A stretch of DNA of 64,000 nucleotides from the NCBI RefSeq assembly GCF_002939305.1, contig NZ_MVDI01000001.1, positions 372,001-436,000 on the forward strand. Reading direction: 5' to 3'. A program made the position numbers and the translations under genes. This stretch comes from Chroococcidiopsis sp. TS-821. GTDB taxonomy: Bacteria; Cyanobacteriota; Cyanobacteriia; Cyanobacteriales; Chroococcidiopsidaceae. Below, piece after piece: positions 8,498 to 17,253 of the stretch. The notes beneath the pieces were generated by a model, which was not told where the DNA came from, did no database searches, and saw nothing but the letters and a program-made list of their open reading frames with translations. Each line of letters starts with the position of its first letter. Positions within the stretch are counted from its first letter, which is position 1.

Positions 8498-10705
8498 ATG
8501 ACTGATACAACTAGAACCCTCTGTCCTTATTGTGGTGTAGGCTGTGGTTTGGAGGTGTCGCCGCCAGCACAGCCAGGGAAGGCAATTAATCGAGATAGTC
8601 AGGGTAATCCGATTTGGAAGGTAAAAGGCGATCGCAATCATCCTTCGAGTCAAGGAATGGTCTGTGTCAAAGGCGCAACCATCGCAGAAGCAATCGACAA
8701 AAACCGCTTGCGTTACCCGATGCTACGCGACTCGTTAGATGAGCCGTTTCGTCGTGTCAGTTGGGATGAAGCTTATCAGTGCATTGTCCATCGCATTCAA
8801 TCAGTCTGCGCGACTCAAGGAGCCGATGCAGTATGCATGTACGGTTCAGGGCAAATGCAAACCGAGGATTATTACGTGGCGCAAAAGCTGCTCAAAGGTT
8901 GCTTAGGGACAAATAACTTTGACTCGAATTCGCGTTTGTGTATGTCATCAGCGGTTGCGGGGTATGTACAAAGTTTGGGTGCAGATGGTCCGCCGTGCTG
9001 TTATGAAGATCTAGACTTAACCGACTGCGCGTTTATTATTGGTTCTAACGCCGCTGAATGTCACCCGATTGTTTTTAATCGCCTGCAAAAACACCACAAG
9101 AAAAACCACAACGTTGTCAAAATGATTGTGGTCGATCCGCGTCGTACTCCTACCGCCGAAGTTGCCGATTTACATTTGGCAATCCATCCAGGGACAGATA
9201 TCGATCTACTTAATGGCATTGCGCATCTGTTATTGCGTTGGGGCTATTTCGATTCTGAGTTTGTTAGCGAGTGTACGGCGAACTTTCCAGCGTTTGCTGA
9301 AGTGATTTCGCACTATCCGCCTGAAGTTGTCGCGAGCAAGTGTGGCGTATCGGTTGCAGATTTGGAAACTGCCGCACGGTACTGGGGAACCAGCAAACGC
9401 GTGTTGTCGCTGTGGTCGATGGGTGTAAATCAATCAACAGAAGGCACAGCAAAAGTCCGCAGCATCATTAACTTGCACTTGATGACAGGTCAAATCGGCA
9501 AACCTGGATGCGGTCCATTTTCACTCACCGGTCAACCGAATGCAATGGGCGGGCGCGAAGTGGGAGGCTTGTGTAATTTATTACCAGGCTACCGTCACGT
9601 CCAAAATGCTCAAGATAGAGCAGAAGTCGAGCAATTTTGGGGCATTCCCGCAGGCAGAATTTCACCACATTGGGGGCGGACTGCGTGGGAAATGATAACA
9701 GGGTTGGAAACGGGAGATGTCGGGTTGCTGTGGATTGTCGCTACAAACCCAGCGGTGAGTTTACCCGATGTCAAGCGCGCGCAAGCTGCATTACTGCGAT
9801 CGCCATTTACGGTGTATCAAGATGCGTATTACCCCACCGAAACCGCCGCGTATGCACATTTACTCCTCCCTGCGGCGCAATGGGGTGAAAAAACAGGCAC
9901 AATGACGAATTCTGAACGCGTTGTCACGTTGTGTCAGGCGTTTCGTCCGCCCGTTGGCGAAGCTCAGCCTGATTGGGCAATTATTGCCGAAGTTGGACGA
10001 CGTTTAGGATTTGCTGACAAGTTTCCTTTTACAAACTCGGCGGAAGTTTTTGCTGAATACGTGCAACTGACCTGCGATCGCCCCTGCGATATGACAGGAA
10101 TGAGTCACGCTAAGTTAGCCCAATCTCCCCTACAATGGCCTTGTCCAGATACATGGGCAAACAGAGATTCTCAAAGGTTATACACCGATTTGCGGTTTGC
10201 GACACCCGATGGACGCGCGCGATTTAGTGCTTATCACTCTAAGGGACTTACCGAACCACCGGATAATGAGTATCCGTTTGTACTAACAACTGGAAGATTA
10301 TACGGTCACTGGCACACGCAGACGCGCACAGGGAGAATTGAGAAAATTAAGCAAATGCACCCACAACCATTTCTTGAAATTCATCCGCGCGATGCAGCGA
10401 AGTTAGAAATTCAAGAAAACGACTTAGTCGAAGTGCGATCGCGACGCGGAACCGTCAAATTTCCCGCAAAAGTTACCAAAGCGATCGCGCCTGGTACAGT
10501 TTTTGTCCCAATGCACTGGGGCGCACTCTGGGGCGATGAAACCGAAGCTAACGCACTAACGCACCCTGAATGCGATCCTGATTCCCATCAACCGGAACTC
10601 AAAGCTTGTGCAGTACAACTAGCGAAAGTTGTCCAGAAAACTAAGATCGATCAAACTGACGCATATCCGCAGTACCCCCACCAATTTTTACCCGCTACTT
10701 TCTAA
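8498..10705 (+). CDS. narB: Ferredoxin-nitrate reductase (Mo-bisMGD)
   Basis: Two-electron reduction of nitrate to nitrite with ferredoxin. 735 residues; ATG at 8498 with GAGGG about 10 bases upstream. The N-terminal 4Fe-4S site is CPYCGVGC (Cys9, Cys12, Cys16) with the fourth Cys in GMVCVKG. The molybdopterin oxidoreductase domain and the C-terminal molydopterin-dinucleotide-binding barrel ([17 protein letters not shown]) follow. It is last gene of the nitrate operon. No maturation factor (narM) or molybdenum-cofactor gene is adjacent. Slightly longer than the usual 715-730 residues. Confidence 0.96.
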
Positions 10706-10726: not shown

Positions 10727-10747
10727 AACACCATGTGGTAATATAAT
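10727..10747 (+). promoter_or_regulatory. ArsR-family operator overlapping the regulator's own -10 box
   Basis: AACACCATGTGGTAAT (10727-10742) matches the perfect palindrome at 12731-12746 in 13 of 16 positions. Its last T is the first base of TATAAT (10742-10747), so a bound repressor would cover the -35/-10 spacer. The regulator's ATG is 44 bp downstream. This predicts autoregulation. Confidence 0.6.
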
Positions 10748-10786
10748 AATAAAAACAAAAGCGCTAAATTTTTGCCATCCTTACCT

Positions 10787-11194
10787 ATGCCTACGAAGTC
10801 GCCTAAAAAGTCAGTTGCTGCGCCAGAAAAAACCGCAGAGTGTGGTATTTCTAAACTCTCCCCTGAAGCGCTGGGCTTGATGGCAGAATTCTTCAAAGTT
10901 TTGTCAGAAGTGAGTCGGTTGCAGATCGTCTGTTCCTTAAAAACTGGTCCTAAGAATGTCACTGAAATCATTGCAGAAACAGAATTAGGACAGGCAAATG
11001 TCTCAAAGCATTTAAAAATGCTCACCCAAGCAGGTATTGTGGCACGGGAACAGCGTGGTGTATGCGTTTATTATCAAATTGCTAATCCACTTCTGTTTGA
11101 ACTGTGCGATTTAGTTTGCAATACTTTGATCGCGCAAGTAGAACAGCAAAGTCTACAGCTACAGCAACTGTCATCATTACGCAAGAACGGTTAG
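10787..11194 (+). CDS. ArsR-family regulator, probable persulfide-responsive repressor (SqrR/BigR-like)
   Basis: 135-residue winged-helix protein from the ATG at 10787; a TTG five codons upstream is less likely. The helix-turn-helix is around ITEIIAETELGQANVSKHLKML (residues about 57-79; here VTEII). It has Cys19, Cys49 (LQIVCS), Cys93, Cys107 and Cys111 (ELCDLVC). The Cys49 / Cys107-111 positions correspond to the dithiol pair that SqrR and BigR use to sense persulfides, and it lacks a CxC metal site in the recognition region. Its neighbours are sulfide-oxidation genes, and related operators precede each of them. Family assignment is firm; the persulfide-sensing role is inference from cysteines and context. 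It could still be a metal or general redox sensor. Confidence 0.85.
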   Translation: MPTKSPKKSVAAPEKTAECGISKLSPEALGLMAEFFKVLSEVSRLQIVCSLKTGPKNVTEIIAETELGQANVSKHLKMLTQAGIVAREQRGVCVYYQIANPLLFELCDLVCNTLIAQVEQQSLQLQQLSSLRKNG

Positions 11195-11202
11195 TTTTTT
11201 TT

Positions 11203-11236
11203 AAGAAGGTAGACTAGAATCTACCTTCTTTTCTTT
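11203..11236 (+). terminator. Rho-independent terminator after the ArsR-family gene
   Basis: Perfect 11-bp stem AAGAAGGTAGA (11203-11213) with TCTACCTTCTT (11220-11230), 6-base loop, followed by TTCTTTT. It lies between the convergent regulator and sqr genes. The minus-strand side lacks a U-run, so it should act mainly on the plus-strand transcript. Confidence 0.8.
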
Positions 11237-11242
11237 TGCGAT

Positions 11243-12559
11243 CTACCGTCGGACGAGCTTGTTAATAGGCTTGAGAATATCGGCTTCAAAGCCTTTACCC
11301 TTGAGCATTCGATTCCAATACAACCAAGGTAGTACGCGTGCTTTAGCTAAATACATTGAGTAGCGTTCCTGTGTGGGGTCGAGGGGAAAAGATGGCGCTA
11401 ATTTACCCCCGTACGCAAACTCTGCCATAATCGCAGAGTTATAGCCAGTGATTAAAGGACAACAAGTATAGCCGTCGTACTTGGCTGACAATGGTTTAGA
11501 GCGAATCAACGCTAGCAAGTTGTGTACGGCAACAGGAGCTTGTTTGCGTGCTGCTGCTGCGGTTTTGGACGTAGGTAAAGATGACGCATCGCCTAAGGCA
11601 AAGACGTTAGCATAGCGCGTATGTTGCAATGTCTCTTTATCTACATCTACCCAACCACCTGCTCCCGCTAGTGGGCTGTGTTTAATAAAATCTGGCGCAC
11701 TCATCGGGGGAGCTACATGAATCATGTCGTAGTGAAGACTAACTTCTTCTGTACCGCTATCTGTAGTCACTGCAAAGATAGCTTCTTGAGTATCTGCCTT
11801 AATTTCTTTCAGGTTGTGCTTAAACTTGGTAACAATCTGCCGTCGCGCTACCACTTTGTCTAAAGAAGCAGAATATTCTGGAACAGAAAACATTGATGCA
11901 CCAGCTGTGCAAAACATAACGGTGGCATCAACTTTGTTGCTTTTGAAAATATCATCTGCTAGGTACATGACCTTCTGAGGGGCACCACCACATTTGATTG
12001 GAGTGGCAGGATGGGTGAAAATGGCATTGCCGCCTTTAAAGTTTTTGATGGTTTCCCAAGTGTAGGGAGCATAGTCTTTGGAATAATTACTCGTAACTCC
12101 ATTTTTTCCGAGTGCTTCTTTCAACCCTTTGATCAAATGCCAATCGATTTGAATTCCTGGACACACAACTAGGTAATCGTATTCAATTTCTCCCTCTTGT
12201 GTAATAACAATATTGCGATCGGGTTCTAGTTTTGTTACGCGGTTTTGAATCCAGGTTGCTCCTTTAGGAATGACGGCTTTTTCATCTCGAATAAACTTGG
12301 AAATTGGTGCAATACCTCCACCAACAAGAGTCCAGCCAGGTTGGTAGTAGTGTTTGTCAGAGGGTTCGATAATAGCAACGTCGAGCGCGCGATCGCGTTT
12401 GAGCAGTTGAGCCGCAACAGTAATGCCAGCAGCGCCGCCTCCGACAATGACAATTTGATGGTGTTTGACAGGTAGCGCAGTTGTATCGTTCGACGAGAGG
12501 TTTTGGGTTGTCAGGTGAGATTGTTGAATATTTTGAGTTTTTTGTGCAGTGGATGACAC
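11243..12559 (-). CDS. sqr: Sulfide:quinone oxidoreductase, SQOR-like
   Basis: Membrane-associated flavoprotein that oxidises sulfide to sulfane sulfur and passes electrons to quinone. 438 residues; GTG at 12557-12559 with GAGGA about 7 bases before it. The N-terminal FAD-binding Rossmann motif is IVGGGAAGIT (about residues 38-47). The KCGGAPQKVMYLAD segment carries the conserved Cys-Gly-Gly of type II/mitochondrial-type SQRs, and the C-terminal membrane-docking helices WLYWNRMLKG are present. A 30-residue Ser/Thr/Gln-rich leader precedes the flavin domain. Transcribed away from the ETHE1-type gene, with operators in between. Confidence 0.9.
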   Translation of the reverse strand: MSSTAQKTQNIQQSHLTTQNLSSNDTTALPVKHHQIVIVGGGAAGITVAAQLLKRDRALDVAIIEPSDKHYYQPGWTLVGGGIAPISKFIRDEKAVIPKGATWIQNRVTKLEPDRNIVITQEGEIEYDYLVVCPGIQIDWHLIKGLKEALGKNGVTSNYSKDYAPYTWETIKNFKGGNAIFTHPATPIKCGGAPQKVMYLADDIFKSNKVDATVMFCTAGASMFSVPEYSASLDKVVARRQIVTKFKHNLKEIKADTQEAIFAVTTDSGTEEVSLHYDMIHVAPPMSAPDFIKHSPLAGAGGWVDVDKETLQHTRYANVFALGDASSLPTSKTAAAARKQAPVAVHNLLALIRSKPLSAKYDGYTCCPLITGYNSAIMAEFAYGGKLAPSFPLDPTQERYSMYLAKARVLPWLYWNRMLKGKGFEADILKPINKLVRR

Positions 12560-12640
12560 GGTGATTCCTCGAATTCTATGAAGTGCAGAGTGAGAAGCTA
12601 TAAGGTTAATGAAATAATTTATTAACTACCCTACTATATA

Positions 12641-12662
12641 ACTTATACTACCATCTGATAAT
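12641..12662 (-). promoter_or_regulatory. Operator and -10 region of sqr
   Basis: ACTACCATCTGATAAT at 12647-12662 matches the consensus ATTACCATATGGTAAT in 13 of 16 positions. Read on the minus strand it ends GGTAGT and its last T begins TATAAG, the presumed -10. This is the same geometry as at the regulator's own promoter. Confidence 0.55.
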
Positions 12663-12730
12663 ATGATGCTGCTTCTCAACAAATACTTACAACTAATATA
12701 ATTATTTAACAAAATTTGTTGCCATTTTAT

Positions 12731-12767
12731 ATTACCATATGGTAATCTAATGAAATAACATGGTAAT
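12731..12767 (+). promoter_or_regulatory. Perfect 16-bp palindromic operator plus a half-site in front of the persulfide dioxygenase
   Basis: ATTACCATATGGTAAT at 12731-12746 is a perfect palindrome. An extra half-site ATGGTAAT at 12760-12767 is displaced by exactly 21 bp, two helical turns, from the half-site at 12739-12746. The last T of the palindrome starts TCTAAT (12746-12751), a plausible -10. It lies in the divergent 367-bp region between sqr and the ETHE1-type gene. Confidence 0.6.
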
Positions 12768-12792
12768 ACATTAAAGCTTTGAGGCTCATGAA

Positions 12793-12870
12793 GTGATAGT
12801 TGCTGGCTATTTAACTTTTTTTTCAATCATTGTGGTAGCTGCCATTGTGTTTGTGGCAAGCGACACGTGA
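12793..12870 (+). CDS. Possible 25-residue single-span membrane peptide
   Basis: Short frame from a GTG at 12793 (GAGG 8 bases upstream) to TGA at 12868-12870. The product is one hydrophobic segment, VIVAGYLTFFSIIVVAAIVF, ending VASDT. It sits between the operator and the ETHE1-type gene, ending 57 bp before that gene's ATG. A clean transmembrane span with a positioned Shine-Dalgarno is suggestive, but the frame is too short to exclude chance. Confidence 0.3.
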   Translation: MIVAGYLTFFSIIVVAAIVFVASDT

Positions 12871-12926
12871 AGCCTCTACCCCAGCTATTGCCTGAATCAG
12901 GTTTACGTTTAATTAGGATCAAAATT

Positions 12927-13625
12927 ATGCTGTTTCGCCAACTATTCGACCAAGATACATGGACGTACACTTACTTAATTGCTGACCCTCAGACGCGAGA
13001 GGCAGCACTTGTCGATCCAGTCATTGAGAAAGTCGAACGAGATTTTCAGCTGCTTAAGGAATTGGGGCTAAAGTTGAAATTCTGTATAGAAACACACGTG
13101 CATGCTGACCATATTACAGGCACCGGAAAACTTCGCGAACTGACAAACTGTGAAGGAATTGTTCCAGAGAATGCTCAAGTTTCCTGTGCAAGCCGCCTGA
13201 TCAAGCATGGAGATGTGCTGCAAGTAGGCAACATTAAGATTCAAGCGATTGCAACTTTAGGACACACCGATAGTCACATGGCCTATTTAGTCAATGGTGA
13301 CAGAGTGCTCACAGGCGATGCACTGTTTATTCGGGGATGCGGACGTACCGATTTTCAAAGCGGAGATCCAGGCACTTTATACGACTTTGTCACGCAAAAC
13401 TTATTTACTTTACCTGACGAAACGCTTGTTTATCCAGGACACGACTACCGCGGGCACACAGTTTCTACCATTGGTGAAGAAAAGCAATGGAACCCGCGAT
13501 TCGCAGGACGTACGCGAGATCAGTTCATTGAATTGATGAATAATTTGAACCTGCCCAATCCCAAAAAGATTATGGAAGCAGTTCCGGCAAACGAACAATG
13601 CGGTCAAGTTGCCATTGCCAGTTAA
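12927..13625 (+). CDS. ETHE1-type persulfide dioxygenase (MBL fold)
   Basis: Non-heme iron enzyme oxidising glutathione persulfide to sulfite. 232 residues from the ATG at 12927 (AGGAT about 8 bases upstream); an alternative GTG at 12867 would overlap the possible small membrane peptide. Metallo-beta-lactamase motifs are intact: THVHADHITG near residue 55, LTGDALFIRGCGRTD and YPGHDYRGHTVSTIGEE. These, especially IRGCGRTDFQSG, are characteristic of the ETHE1 branch rather than glyoxalase II. It follows the perfect operator and precedes the membrane rhodanese and TauE-type genes, probably as one operon. Confidence 0.92.
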   Translation: MLFRQLFDQDTWTYTYLIADPQTREAALVDPVIEKVERDFQLLKELGLKLKFCIETHVHADHITGTGKLRELTNCEGIVPENAQVSCASRLIKHGDVLQVGNIKIQAIATLGHTDSHMAYLVNGDRVLTGDALFIRGCGRTDFQSGDPGTLYDFVTQNLFTLPDETLVYPGHDYRGHTVSTIGEEKQWNPRFAGRTRDQFIELMNNLNLPNPKKIMEAVPANEQCGQVAIAS

Positions 13626-13716
13626 GCTTGACACCAAATTTAAATAACAAGACTAAGTCTCCCTTAGTTGCATTTGTTTTTACCCACTTATTCAAATCAA
13701 TACTGAGAAGAATTGC

Positions 13717-14280
13717 ATGACAAGTACACCGGAAAAGCAGTTAACTGATCGCCGCGATCGCTTAAAAACTATCGACGTGCATACTCTCAAACAGTTACTC
13801 GATCGCCAAGCTGTCAATTTAGTAGATGTTCGCGAACCTGCTGAAAACGCCAGAGAAAAAATTGCAGGTTCAGTGTTGATGCCCTTATCAAACTTCAACC
13901 CAGCTGATGTACCATTTGCGCCTGAAAAGCCTACTGTACTCTATTGCCGTACAGGAAATCGCTCAGCACAAGCGGCACAAAAATTGTTTGCTGCTGGTGT
14001 AAACGAAGTAGAACATTTGGAAGGTGGATTAACCGCGTGGATAGAAGCAGGCTATCCAACTCAAGTGAATAAGAAAGCACCCATTAGTCTGATGCGGCAA
14101 GTACAAATTGTTGCAGGTTCGCTTGTCCTCATTGGTACTTTACTGGGAGCGTTTGTCTCTTTGTGGTTCTTAATTTTGAGCGGGTTTGTGGGTGCTGGAT
14201 TAATGTTTGCCGGAATTACAGATACCTGTGCATTAGGAATGCTACTTGCCAAGATGCCTTGGAATCAAAGATACCGTTAA
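13717..14280 (+). CDS. Membrane-anchored rhodanese with DUF2892 tail (YgaP-like)
   Basis: 187 residues. The N-terminal rhodanese domain has the active-site loop CRTGNRS (Cys about residue 76), so it should accept sulfane sulfur from persulfide. The C-terminus has two membrane segments (about residues 127-150 and 152-172) typical of DUF2892. This is the architecture of E. coli YgaP, an inner-membrane sulfurtransferase. It lies 91 bp after the persulfide dioxygenase gene and 57 bp before the TauE-type gene. Confidence 0.9.
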   Translation: MTSTPEKQLTDRRDRLKTIDVHTLKQLLDRQAVNLVDVREPAENAREKIAGSVLMPLSNFNPADVPFAPEKPTVLYCRTGNRSAQAAQKLFAAGVNEVEHLEGGLTAWIEAGYPTQVNKKAPISLMRQVQIVAGSLVLIGTLLGAFVSLWFLILSGFVGAGLMFAGITDTCALGMLLAKMPWNQRYR

Positions 14281-14337
14281 CTCTTATGCAGTCGGAACAT
14301 CGCTCACTTTAGAGAGCTTACAAGGAACAATATATCA

Positions 14338-15117
14338 ATGTTAATCGCCATTATTGGGCACTTACTAGCAATTTGTATTGGCATCAGTCTCGGTTTAATT
14401 GGTGGCGGCGGCTCAATTCTCGCAGCACCTATTCTCATTTATGTTATGTCAGTTCCACCACAATCGGCGTTTGCTATGACGCTGGTGATTGTTGGTTTCG
14501 CAAGTGTAATTGGTGCTATCCCGCATTGGAGGCAAGGAAATGTTAATTTAAACACAGTTATTTTGTTTTCACCCGCAGCGATGCTGGGAGCCTATTTAGG
14601 CGCGCGGCTTGTCTCACTTCCATTTATTACTCCTACCATTCAACTCATTACCTTTGGGGTGGTGATGCTAATTGCATCAATCACAATGATCCGCAAAGGA
14701 AGCAAGCCAGCTGAAAGCACTTCAAAGAAAGCCGATCGCCACACCCATCACTTGTTTGTACCCAGGTGGCTAGCGATCGCTCTAGAAGGGTTAGCAGTTG
14801 GTGTATTAACAGGTTTTATCGGGATTGGCGGTGGATTTTTAGTTATTCCTGCGTTAGTTCTATTGGGAAATGTTCCCATGAAAGAAGCTGTAGGAACGTC
14901 ACTCATTATTCTGGCGCTTAAATCCGTGACTGGATTTGCTGGATATGTTGGTAACGTTCCCATTGATTGGAATCTGCTGATTTCATTCACACTTGCTTCA
15001 AGTTTTGGAATTCTCGTGGGAAGCTATCTTAATCAGTTTGTTAGTGCTAAACAGCTGGAGAAAGGGTTTGGTTACTTTGTTTTAGCAGTTGCTATCTTTG
15101 TTTTGATTCGACGTTAA
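14338..15117 (+). CDS. TauE/SafE family sulfite/anion exporter
   Basis: 259-residue membrane protein with about eight segments, in two repeated halves each starting with the family Gly-rich motif (GLIGGGGSILAAPIL near residue 20; GFIGIGGGFLVIPALV near residue 160). A charged loop with His residues separates the halves. AAGGA lies about 10 bases before the ATG. Family members export sulfite, sulfoacetate or related anions; its place directly after dioxygenase and rhodanese genes supports export of sulfite or thiosulfate. Substrate is inference. Confidence 0.88.
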   Translation: MLIAIIGHLLAICIGISLGLIGGGGSILAAPILIYVMSVPPQSAFAMTLVIVGFASVIGAIPHWRQGNVNLNTVILFSPAAMLGAYLGARLVSLPFITPTIQLITFGVVMLIASITMIRKGSKPAESTSKKADRHTHHLFVPRWLAIALEGLAVGVLTGFIGIGGGFLVIPALVLLGNVPMKEAVGTSLIILALKSVTGFAGYVGNVPIDWNLLISFTLASSFGILVGSYLNQFVSAKQLEKGFGYFVLAVAIFVLIRR

Positions 15118-15133
15118 TCTCCGCTAATAATTA

Positions 15134-15187
15134 ATGGTTGATTGTGAATAGATCGCTAAATCTTAACAATCAACCATCAATATTTTT
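15134..15187. terminator. Terminator between convergent TauE-type and dioxygenase-rhodanese genes
   Basis: Perfect 12-bp stem: ATGGTTGATTGT (15134-15145) pairs with ACAATCAACCAT (15166-15177), 20-base loop, followed by CAATATTTTTAAG on the plus strand. Likely terminates the 12.9-15.1 kb operon; it could also act on the opposing transcript. Confidence 0.7.
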
Positions 15188-15198
15188 AAGTTAATGCG

Positions 15199-16611
15199 TT
15201 ACGCTGTTACGGCGTTTGCTTCTGGTTTTTCAATTGGTAAATCTGCACCTTTCCAAGCAATCCAGGAGCCAGGAACGTTAATTACCTGCTCAAATCCATG
15301 CTTTTTCAACAGACTTGCAGCAATTGAGGCTCGATAGCCACTACCGCAGTAAGTTGCAATTTTTTGACTGCGGTCAAGTTGATCTAAATGTTCTTCTAAA
15401 TGAGCGACAAAAATATGTTTGGCTCCTGGGACAAATCCGTGTTGATATTCGTCATCGCCACGGACATCGAGTACAGTGACTGATGGATCTTGTTTATGTT
15501 GATTCAATTCATGTACTGTCCATTCATGCACTCTTTCTAAGGGTAGTCCGGCATTTTGCCAACTGGTCATTCCGTCGTGCAAATAGCCTGCTAAATTGTC
15601 GTAGCCGATGCGGAAAAGTTGCTCTGTAACTAGTTTGACATCTCGTTCGCTTTCTACTACAACTAACAACGGTTTTTCTGGATCGATCATCCAGCCTACC
15701 CAGTTGGGAAACTCTGGACGTAAGGCGATGTTGATAGCACCAGGAATATGTCCTCCGCCAAAGGCTAGTATAGAGCGGGTATCAATGACCACTGTATTTT
15801 CATCTGCCATTTTCTGTTGAAATTCGCTGGGCGTCAGTGGTTGCAGTACCGGAGGACAGCCCATAATTGGTGCGCCCTTAGCGTTGACTTTTTTGAGCCG
15901 CGCATAATGACGTGGGGGTTCTGGCATTTCGCTCATAATCCATTCCACAAATTCGGTTTCTGAGCGTTCTTGAAATGCTGGATTGAAAATTCGCTCGTTA
16001 CCAATGGTACTTTGTCTGCGATCGCCAATAGATTTTCCACAGGAGGAACCAGCACCGTGACAAGGATAAATCTCAATGCGATCGCCTAAAGGTAACATCT
16101 TGTCGAACAGCGTGTGATAAAGCTGTGCTGCCAGTTTCTTTTCCGTTCCACCCCCTAATAAATCAGGACGACCAACATCCAAGTTAAATAATGTGTCCCC
16201 TGTAAATAGCCCAAATGGTTCTTTACCTTGTTTTGAGTCATAAATCAGAAGTGAGATGTGTTCAGGGGTATGACCTGGCGTGTGCAAAGCGCGCAGCGTT
16301 ACGCTGCCAATGTGAATTTCGTCACCCTCTTGCATCTGATGAAGTTCAAACTGATAGTCATCACTTTTGCCACCGTAAATAGGCACATCTACACGGGCTT
16401 TGAGTTCGTGAGAACCAGAGACAAAGTCAGCATGAATATGCGTTTCTACACTACCAATTAATCGCACGCCTAGTTCTCTCGCTCGTTGTAGATAGACATC
16501 AACATCTCGACGAGGGTCAATTACAACTGCCACTCCTGCTTTGTCGTCGCCTACAAGATACGATAATTGTGCCAAACCTTCGACATTAATTTGTTCTAAG
16601 ACAAGTGCCAT
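15199..16611 (-). CDS. Persulfide dioxygenase-rhodanese fusion (CstB-like)
   Basis: 470 residues, ATG with AGAGG 8 bases upstream. Three domains: an N-terminal metallo-beta-lactamase dioxygenase (ETHIHADFVSGSHELK near residue 57, TGDTLFNLDVGRPDLLG, YPCHGAGSSCGKSIG); a central rhodanese fold whose active-site position reads VVVESERD without cysteine; and a C-terminal active rhodanese with CGSGYRAS. This is the order of Staphylococcus CstB, which turns persulfides into thiosulfate. It is 61 bp downstream of the DUF442 gene and probably cotranscribed from the operator at 17171. It is the second persulfide dioxygenase of the cluster. Confidence 0.9.
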   Translation of the reverse strand: MALVLEQINVEGLAQLSYLVGDDKAGVAVVIDPRRDVDVYLQRARELGVRLIGSVETHIHADFVSGSHELKARVDVPIYGGKSDDYQFELHQMQEGDEIHIGSVTLRALHTPGHTPEHISLLIYDSKQGKEPFGLFTGDTLFNLDVGRPDLLGGGTEKKLAAQLYHTLFDKMLPLGDRIEIYPCHGAGSSCGKSIGDRRQSTIGNERIFNPAFQERSETEFVEWIMSEMPEPPRHYARLKKVNAKGAPIMGCPPVLQPLTPSEFQQKMADENTVVIDTRSILAFGGGHIPGAINIALRPEFPNWVGWMIDPEKPLLVVVESERDVKLVTEQLFRIGYDNLAGYLHDGMTSWQNAGLPLERVHEWTVHELNQHKQDPSVTVLDVRGDDEYQHGFVPGAKHIFVAHLEEHLDQLDRSQKIATYCGSGYRASIAASLLKKHGFEQVINVPGSWIAWKGADLPIEKPEANAVTA

Positions 16612-16672
16612 TGTTTTACCTCTTAAATGTGCTGCAACTGCAATAGCAAAAACTTATTAGCTGCGGATAAAA

Positions 16673-17137
16673 CTATTGCGAAGTACTGCTACCACTAGAA
16701 CGAGTAGAAACGTATTGTTTAAAAAACTCCTTCATTTGAGGACTGGCATCGCAATCAAACCCCATCTGCTTTCCTTTTTCCATTGCCGCCTCTGCACTTA
16801 AACCTTCGCGAGTGGCAACATACATTAGAGCCATTGCACCAGAGCGCAGTCCGCTTTTACAGTGGGTTAAGAGCGGCTTTGGCAACTGGTCAATTTGTTC
16901 CATAATGCGATCCGCTTGTTCCTGACTTAGAGCATCTGGACGTACAGGAAGATTTACATATTGCAGTCCTGCGGCTTCCGCGTGTTGTTGCTCATCACTC
17001 AAAGCACCTTCTTCTTGCAGCGCTCTTAAGTTCAACACAGACTTATATCCTTCCTCAGCCGCCTGTCGCAGATCCTCCGGTGTTGGTTGTCCCATAGCAA
17101 CAGAAATGCTGTCGTTAATTTGTTTTACGTTATTCAT
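16673..17137 (-). CDS. DUF442 / beta-lactamase hydrolase-like phosphatase-fold protein
   Basis: 154 residues from the ATG at 17137; a GTG four codons upstream (17149) is possible. The fold is that of dual-specificity phosphatases, with the P-loop HCKSGLRSGAM (about residues 106-116, nucleophile Cys in HC). Proteins of this family (Blh) are usually found beside or fused to persulfide dioxygenases and sulfurtransferases. Catalytic role unknown. It heads a two-gene unit with the CstB-like fusion and has an operator-like palindrome 34 bp before its start. Confidence 0.85.
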   Translation of the reverse strand: MNNVKQINDSISVAMGQPTPEDLRQAAEEGYKSVLNLRALQEEGALSDEQQHAEAAGLQYVNLPVRPDALSQEQADRIMEQIDQLPKPLLTHCKSGLRSGAMALMYVATREGLSAEAAMEKGKQMGFDCDASPQMKEFFKQYVSTRSSGSSTSQ

Positions 17138-17170
17138 TGAGTAATTCACACTAAACTTTTATATTCTTAT

Positions 17171-17186
17171 CTTACCAACTAGTAAT
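17171..17186 (-). promoter_or_regulatory. Operator-like palindrome before the DUF442 gene
   Basis: CTTACCAACTAGTAAT matches ATTACCATATGGTAAT in 12 of 16 positions, conserving the outer TTACC/GTAAT arms. On the minus strand it ends GGTAAG and its last base begins GATAAG, in the place where the other three sites have their -10 box. Confidence 0.45.
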
Positions 17187-17253
17187 ATAATTTAATCTAG
17201 CTTTTGGAGGATAGATTTTATGAAAAAAGTATGACTAAAGGTAGTTGCCAGTT

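Follow-up and report, generated by a model that had tools for sequence, protein, structure and literature searches.

The locus described here raises the question of which element, if any, coordinates the genes for sulfide and persulfide handling that stand side by side in the cyanobacterium Chroococcidiopsis sp. TS-821. The analysed DNA, hereafter the window, is a stretch of 64,000 nt (contig NZ_MVDI01000001.1, positions 372,001–436,000; genome size 5.23 Mb), and coordinates are counted from its first nucleotide. At the level of sequence, one common predicted operator, a palindrome of the form ATTAC-N6-GTAAT, was confirmed in front of each sulfide-gene unit of the window, and it is conserved in many other cyanobacteria. 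The regulator operator, AACACCATGTGGTAAT (10727–10742, plus strand), precedes the gene of an ArsR/SmtB-family protein and is joined by a -10-like TATAAT at 10742–10747. The sqr-proximal operator (12647–12662, minus strand) reads ATTATCAGATGGTAGT towards sqr, lies 88 bp from that gene and carries the hexamer TATAAG. The perfect palindrome ATTACCATATGGTAAT (12731–12746, no strand assigned) is placed between the divergent sqr and dioxygenase genes, with TCTAAT towards the dioxygenase gene and TATAAA towards sqr, and the weakest operator, reading ATTACTAGTTGGTAAG towards the DUF442 gene (17171–17186, minus strand), has the hexamer GATAAG and stands 22 bp before the listed start. A first-pass annotation of the window had already given these positions, the perfect palindrome and, in the reading direction of each gene, the hexamers TATAAT, TATAAG, TCTAAT and GATAAG, whose first base is the final one of the operator; all of this proved correct.

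The site at 12731–12746 shows no mismatch with ATTACCATATGGTAAT, those at 10727–10742 and 12647–12662 three each and that at 17171–17186, counted by hand, four; at up to three mismatches the window contains three matches, 0.27 being expected. A matrix built from the four sites scored them at 23.1, 18.1, 17.6 and 16.3, with 11.7 for the next best place in the 64 kb, figures that are partly circular because the same sites made the matrix. The same-genus genome G067 retains every one of the four sites. The regulator operator (L125:7885) and the sqr-proximal operator are identical there, and the other two each carry a single change, the DUF442 site reading CTTACCAAGTAGTAAT with the hexamer GATGAG.

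Among the 195 genomes of the order, 165 have a homologue of the regulator (E 1e-20, paralogues counted), and 77 further loci were taken from a named collection; 32 distant loci (L080–L111) were excluded from the de novo count, the matrix tests, the register test and the protein alignment. When 5-bp palindromic pairs were counted de novo in 152 upstreams of module genes, own genome and same genus included, ATTAC-N6-GTAAT was the commonest (13 against 0.2 in shuffles), followed by TATAT-N4 (11 against 0.4) and CATAT-N4 (9 against 0). CATAT-N4-ATATG was rejected as a second palindrome class, since it largely represents these sites shifted in register, and palindromes of the GCGATCGC type were set aside as the common cyanobacterial repeat HIP1. 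Outside the genus, the four-site matrix reached a score of at least 12 for regulator upstreams in 30 of 78 cases, for dioxygenase upstreams in 14 of 27 and for sqr upstreams in 8 of 15 (25/70, 13/25 and 7/14 after removal of near-duplicates), the control rates being 0.7% for first-order shuffles (n = 1200) and 1.2% for other stretches (n = 2162). Upstreams of the rhodanese and exporter genes, both internal to the run of genes in the window, gave 1/15 and 1/17 (near-duplicates removed). The orthologous promoters, whose lack of the motif the first-pass annotation had named as refuting its idea, carry matches far above shuffled and local controls. As for the DUF442 gene, a site scoring at least 9 was found at 13 of 30 loci (11 of 28 without own and same-genus loci), and 11 of the 13 sites are located 11–23 bp before the start, a range that includes the 22 bp of the window.

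The position of the operator relative to the promoter also recurs in relatives. A matrix trained on relatives served to select sites scoring at least 11, with near-duplicates removed and dioxygenase sites at distances of 200 bp and above from the start excluded. Among these, a hexamer with at least five of the six TATAAT bases has the final operator base as its first base in 24/29 regulator, 11/16 dioxygenase and 8/11 sqr promoters, the maximum at 16 other offsets being 3, 2 and 2, respectively. The fixed -10 geometry proposed earlier thus holds in relatives, but the true -10 element may be TAATNT (operator bases 13–16 plus two), overlapping the operator by four bases rather than one. Indeed, a -35-like TTGTCA/TTGACA (at least four of six bases) was found in 5 of the 16 dioxygenase promoters, its distance being 17 bp to TAATNT and 20 bp to the hexamer initially assigned. 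In the regulator promoters no clear -35 element was seen in either register (at most 4/29).

In four relatives (L036, L037, L040 and L130) the gap between sqr and the dioxygenase gene holds two sites, one proximal to sqr (51–73 bp from it) and a central one facing both genes. Together with the -10-like hexamers on either side of 12731–12746, this arrangement suggests that the palindrome is probably an operator common to the two divergent genes. It does face the dioxygenase gene, to which it had been ascribed, but it probably serves sqr as well. An extra half-site, ACATGGTAATACATT, was noticed past the dioxygenase promoter (12755–12775), and it is present in G067 too.

The genes adjoining the four sites would belong to one sulfide/persulfide pathway, and the initial proposal of an operator that overlies the spacer at its -10 end, beside such genes, is supported. 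The regulator (10787–11194, plus strand) has 135 aa. The sqr gene (11243–12559, minus strand) codes for a flavin adenine dinucleotide (FAD) protein resembling sulfide:quinone oxidoreductase (SQR), whose best NCBIfam model, the type III SQR selenoprotein subtype, stays below the cut-off (234 bits, cut-off 525). A metallo-beta-lactamase (MBL)-fold protein (12927–13625, plus strand) is read as a persulfide dioxygenase of ETHE1 type from its context and because the Blh model matches it in part, as it does the DUF442 protein; in the Pfam/NCBIfam scan no family model naming it an ETHE1-type dioxygenase reached its cut-off. It is followed on the same strand by a rhodanese with a YgaP-like membrane domain (13717–14280) and a TauE/SafE-type exporter (14338–15117). 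On the minus strand are encoded a protein with one MBL and two rhodanese domains according to Pfam/NCBIfam (15199–16611), a CstB-like layout, and a DUF442/BLH-phosphatase-like protein (16673–17149), for which Met at 17137 is a possible start. Pfam cut-offs were passed by the regulator and by the DUF442, rhodanese and exporter proteins. SQR-like, MBL and rhodanese proteins (Pfam/NCBIfam) thus surround the regulator, as is the case for sensors of the SqrR/BigR type.

Membership of the regulator in the ArsR/SmtB family is given by Pfam HTH_5 (51.4 bits, cut-off 22) and NCBIfam NF033788 (78.2 bits, cut-off 55). Counting from the ATG at 10787, the three cysteines are numbered Cys49, Cys107 and Cys111, as had been stated. 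In an AlphaFold2 model (33 sequences; mean predicted local distance difference test score, pLDDT, 84.4) C49 falls in helix alpha2 (residues 42–53) and C107 and C111 in helix alpha5 (residues 101–134), so that the modelled placement is that of SqrR. In an alignment of 81 proteins, SuoR of Synechocystis included (matches with fewer than 85 aligned residues or outside 90–200 aa excluded), C107 is present in 81/81, C111 in 76/81 and C49 in 75/81. The six members without C49 are the own-genome paralogues on contigs 3 and 8, L078, L144, L042_589 and SuoR; none of the five other than SuoR has an upstream site scoring at least 11. In the tree, the 12-row group containing the window regulator has the operator in 12/12 rows, and the operator label requires 14 changes, compared with 27.4 in shuffles.

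Taken together, it is very probable that the window contains a sulfide/persulfide detoxification regulon that works in the manner of SqrR and BigR. An ArsR-family dimer would bind the ATTAC-N6-GTAAT palindromes, covering the 3′ part of the spacer and reaching into the -10 element, at its own promoter, at both sqr promoters and in front of the dioxygenase–rhodanese–exporter and DUF442–CstB-like operons, and once bound would block RNA polymerase. Rising sulfane sulfur would then lead to a persulfide or polysulfide bridge from C49 (helix 2) to C107 or C111 (helix 5), lowering the affinity for DNA and turning all units on. The sites with their conservation and position, the gene content, the cysteine pair and the predicted fold are read from the sequence; from these we infer the binding, the repression, the operon limits, the persulfide signal and which of the close paralogues would act at each site. 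Persulfide sensing by the window regulator would follow by analogy, a close parallel being SqrR of Rhodobacter capsulatus, which shares the ArsR fold (Foldseek match to 6o8k, template modelling (TM) score 0.83 by target length, 28% identity), the cysteines on alpha2 and alpha5 and the control of sqr and a rhodanese gene (PMC8960804; PMC9995734; papers are cited by PMC number from partial text throughout). Unlike the window regulator, SqrR recognises ATTC-N8-GAAT (PMC9774250), and the window protein has two alpha5 cysteines. Arms of the ATTC...GAAT type were seen by eye in none of the four window sites.

Several observations weigh against this reading. On the DNA side, the 16-mer at up to three mismatches is not enriched in the own genome (25 places, 32 for the reversed control); four of the 25 places are in two sulfide clusters, that of the window and another on contig 4, and the other 21 are within (15) or outside (6) open reading frames (ORFs). 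A good match is missing from roughly half or more of the related upstreams, and below 60% identity no more than 6 of 28 regulators have one. Nor is the cluster universal within the genus, G085 yielding neither a closely orthologous regulator (best E 3e-37) nor a DUF442 match. Moreover, the flanks of the dioxygenase and sqr sites are near-palindromic (the left flank of the regulator promoter less so), and as they mirror each other, the -10 match there is partly operator symmetry. The composite TACYRNRYRGTANTATAA, operator plus TATAA, does set the two sulfide clusters of the own genome apart at up to one mismatch, six of its eight strand matches falling there (five in the window at the four sites and one on contig 4), but at up to two mismatches it did no better than the control (56 against 62); its counts are descriptive, the pattern having been written after the sites were seen. 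In favour of the reading, a strict motif at up to one mismatch produced 37 strand matches across the 195 genomes of the order, compared with 6 in the reversed control. They correspond to 30 distinct places, 21 of which are beside module genes, including the contig-4 site and one in G047; the other nine are near psbA (G083), an epimerase-like gene (G084, by eye) and a transposase-like ORF (G149, by eye), within ORFs in G024, G035 and G047, and at three places in G040. As to random scatter through the genome, named earlier as a ground for refutation, the loose 16-mer is unenriched, and the composite separates the sulfide clusters at up to one mismatch. That the palindromes are generic AT-rich surroundings of -10 elements and their four-fold match a compositional coincidence would agree with the unenriched 16-mer and the two-mismatch composite; we regard it as extremely improbable, given that conservation in orthologous promoters greatly exceeds shuffled and local controls, that rhodanese and exporter upstreams score low and that the register is fixed.

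Further points against the SqrR/BigR-type reading come from the proteins. The regulator reaches only 37.5 bits with the NCBIfam BigR equivalog NF040642 (cut-off 155), the dioxygenase is named from context and SQR from a sub-threshold model plus context, and in the tree the operator label still needs its 14 changes, with weak support (81/89) for the 12-row group. Metal sensors resemble the fold no less than SqrR does: Foldseek ranked Rv0081 first, with SmtB, CzrA, SqrR, HlyU and BigR close behind, so that fold alone cannot separate persulfide from metal sensing, and C49, C107 and C111 could serve as ligands of As(III), Sb(III) or a different thiophilic ion. The operator could accordingly be real and its signal a metalloid (arsenite or antimonite), or metalloid and sulfide together, as in the SuoR system of Synechocystis. 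SuoR is, like the regulator proposed here, a cyanobacterial ArsR repressor of sqr (PMC4307280), which it controls together with an arsenite transporter (PMC4307280; PMC5061849). In the 25 kb of pSYSM around suoR the best matrix match (10.5) is ACAACTATGTAGTTAT, in the promoter of suoS (sqr; L124:16402); this related palindrome is a candidate SuoR operator and fits a family of related operators. Nevertheless, SuoR has W at the position of C49, lacks C111 and sits on a very long tree branch, which does not place the window regulator in its lineage, and among the nine window proteins scanned no arsenic gene, an arsenite transporter included, was named, the neighbours being rhodanese, MBL and SQR-like proteins. 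A metalloid signal hence appears unlikely.

A different complication arises from contig 4, where a cluster (L113, 255700–257531) comprises a dithiol regulator (255735), its own dioxygenase–rhodanese pair and the operator TTTACTATATAGTAAT in TATAAT register. This paralogue is 74% identical to the window regulator and keeps the segment QANVSKHL, which is nearly constant among the regulators, SuoR included; related operators and possible cross-talk are therefore predicted. A network in which the two repressors share sites as two sensors is conceivable, if somewhat short of probable in our view: the site centres differ (CTATATAG on contig 4, CCATATGG in the window), leaving room for some specificity, and the upstream of the contig-4 regulator itself has no site scoring at least 9. 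With the same recognition helix and an operator of its own in the paralogue, the dithiol ArsR-type regulator claimed by the first-pass annotation is retained, but it may not be the one repressor. Besides TTTACTATATAGTAAT, the gap in the contig-4 cluster contains a further imperfect palindrome, ATTACCAGTATGGTAA.

Returning to a persulfide-responsive ArsR repressor as the preferred reading, other known systems resemble it in part. BigR of Xylella and Acinetobacter is likewise an ArsR repressor with a cysteine pair and is tied to the dioxygenase–sulfurtransferase Blh (PMC9995734; PMC8960804), but the window regulator is far below the NCBIfam cut-off for BigR. YgaV of Escherichia coli, a SqrR homologue, has a footprint spanning promoter elements of ygaVP, whereas its boxes are similar to ATTC-N8-GAAT and its targets differ, katG and genes of anaerobic respiration being examples (PMC9774250). 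RexT of Nostoc is also a cyanobacterial ArsR-type thiol sensor but senses H2O2 and binds ATTCG-N15-CGAAT (PMC8960804). In the literature searched, as far as its text was available, no cyanobacterial sulfide regulator with an ATTAC-N6-GTAAT operator was found, though Nagy 2014 on SuoR may contain a related sequence; a search for one literal spelling of the operator gave no match. It has been reported that 27 cyanobacterial sqr genes are near arsR and that in 15 genomes sqr is near a low-oxygen psbA, with linked regulation suggested and deferred to a later study (PMC5061849), and in Thermostichales genomes arsR is upstream of a type II sqr with tauE adjoining (PMC11304991). The motif provides a concrete operator for sulfide/persulfide regulation across cyanobacteria and, now that it is defined, allows the suggested link to be tested directly with gel shifts, reporters and genome scans.

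The layout may extend further. Upstreams of the regulator in 25 non-cyanobacterial relatives (L080–L104, mostly Acidobacteria and Planctomycetota) scored at least 9 in four cases (L082, L085, L088 and L092), the acidobacterial L085 having ATTACTACTTAGTTAT near the regulator start (score 15.6), and ATAAC-N6-GTTAT is near the regulator start in the acidobacterial L084, L090 and L093. The acidobacterial upstreams hint at an operator layout older than cyanobacteria.

An exact operator match in G083 (L216:8341), 70 bp before a psbA gene, leads to photosystem II. We sorted 51 psbA copies by residues 80, 158 and 286 (30 best-match loci, the own copy and 20 hand-picked ones, mostly from the same genomes), the starting gene from G083 having been picked because of its site. 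Copies with A80/L158/A286 (A/L/A) are probably the microaerobic D1′ variant. A matrix site scoring at least 9 within 150 bp was found in 11 of 21 A/L/A genes (loci L221–L227, L235, L241, L244 and L246; L216:8341 in G083) and in none of 30 standard (G/F/T) genes, with 1.6–1.8% in shuffles. Seven of the 11 site-bearing genes are orthologues in family f14, and outside f14 the count is 4/14. In a held-out set of 145 genomes of the class, the best 30 loci of 112 matching genomes included 29 new ones, none of them A/L/A; the 29 comprised 26 GFT and 3 AFT copies with no site scoring at least 9, adding controls and no replication. The single psbA detected in the own genome (L251) is G/F/T and has no site.

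A regulator 61–64% identical to that of the window, with C49, C107 and C111, is present in six of the seven f14 genomes, the matched stretch being interrupted by a stop in G117. An upstream site accompanies three of these regulators (8.4, 10.6 and 17.0, the last at the 64% identical regulator of G013) and none the other three. G083 has just a distant paralogue without the cysteine pair. The psbA sites could instead belong to ChlR, a regulator that in Synechocystis binds at the promoter of psbA1 (PMC4500134) and for which no motif was found in the available text of the literature consulted; being over the -10 element, their position suits a repressor. The role of D1′ has been called unclear in a review (PMC4582080), and a literature search on the D1′ residues gave no match. 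We tentatively propose that in some cyanobacteria the sulfide operator also controls the D1′ psbA, one persulfide-sensing repressor coupling sulfide oxidation to an exchange of the photosystem II core. If so, this would be the regulatory connection still missing between sulfide and the low-oxygen form of photosystem II, and should the D1′ sites be bound, they would provide a switch by which sulfide alters photosystem II composition. Regulator homologues about 1 kb or less from psbA were seen at L239 and L271 (47 and 53% identity), in G103 (A/L/A) and G023 (standard).

Some minor features of the region can be added. The plus face of the DUF442 site (17186–17234, plus strand) offers TATAAT, GGAGG and a four-codon frame; the short frame ATGAAAAAAGTATGA past this face was rejected, G067 having ATT for ATG. 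Upstream of the window regulator are an ABC ATPase and a nitrate-reductase-like gene (8498–10705), and the contig-3 paralogue without C49 (L114, own genome) comes after an ABC transporter cluster that by eye resembles a nitrate transporter.

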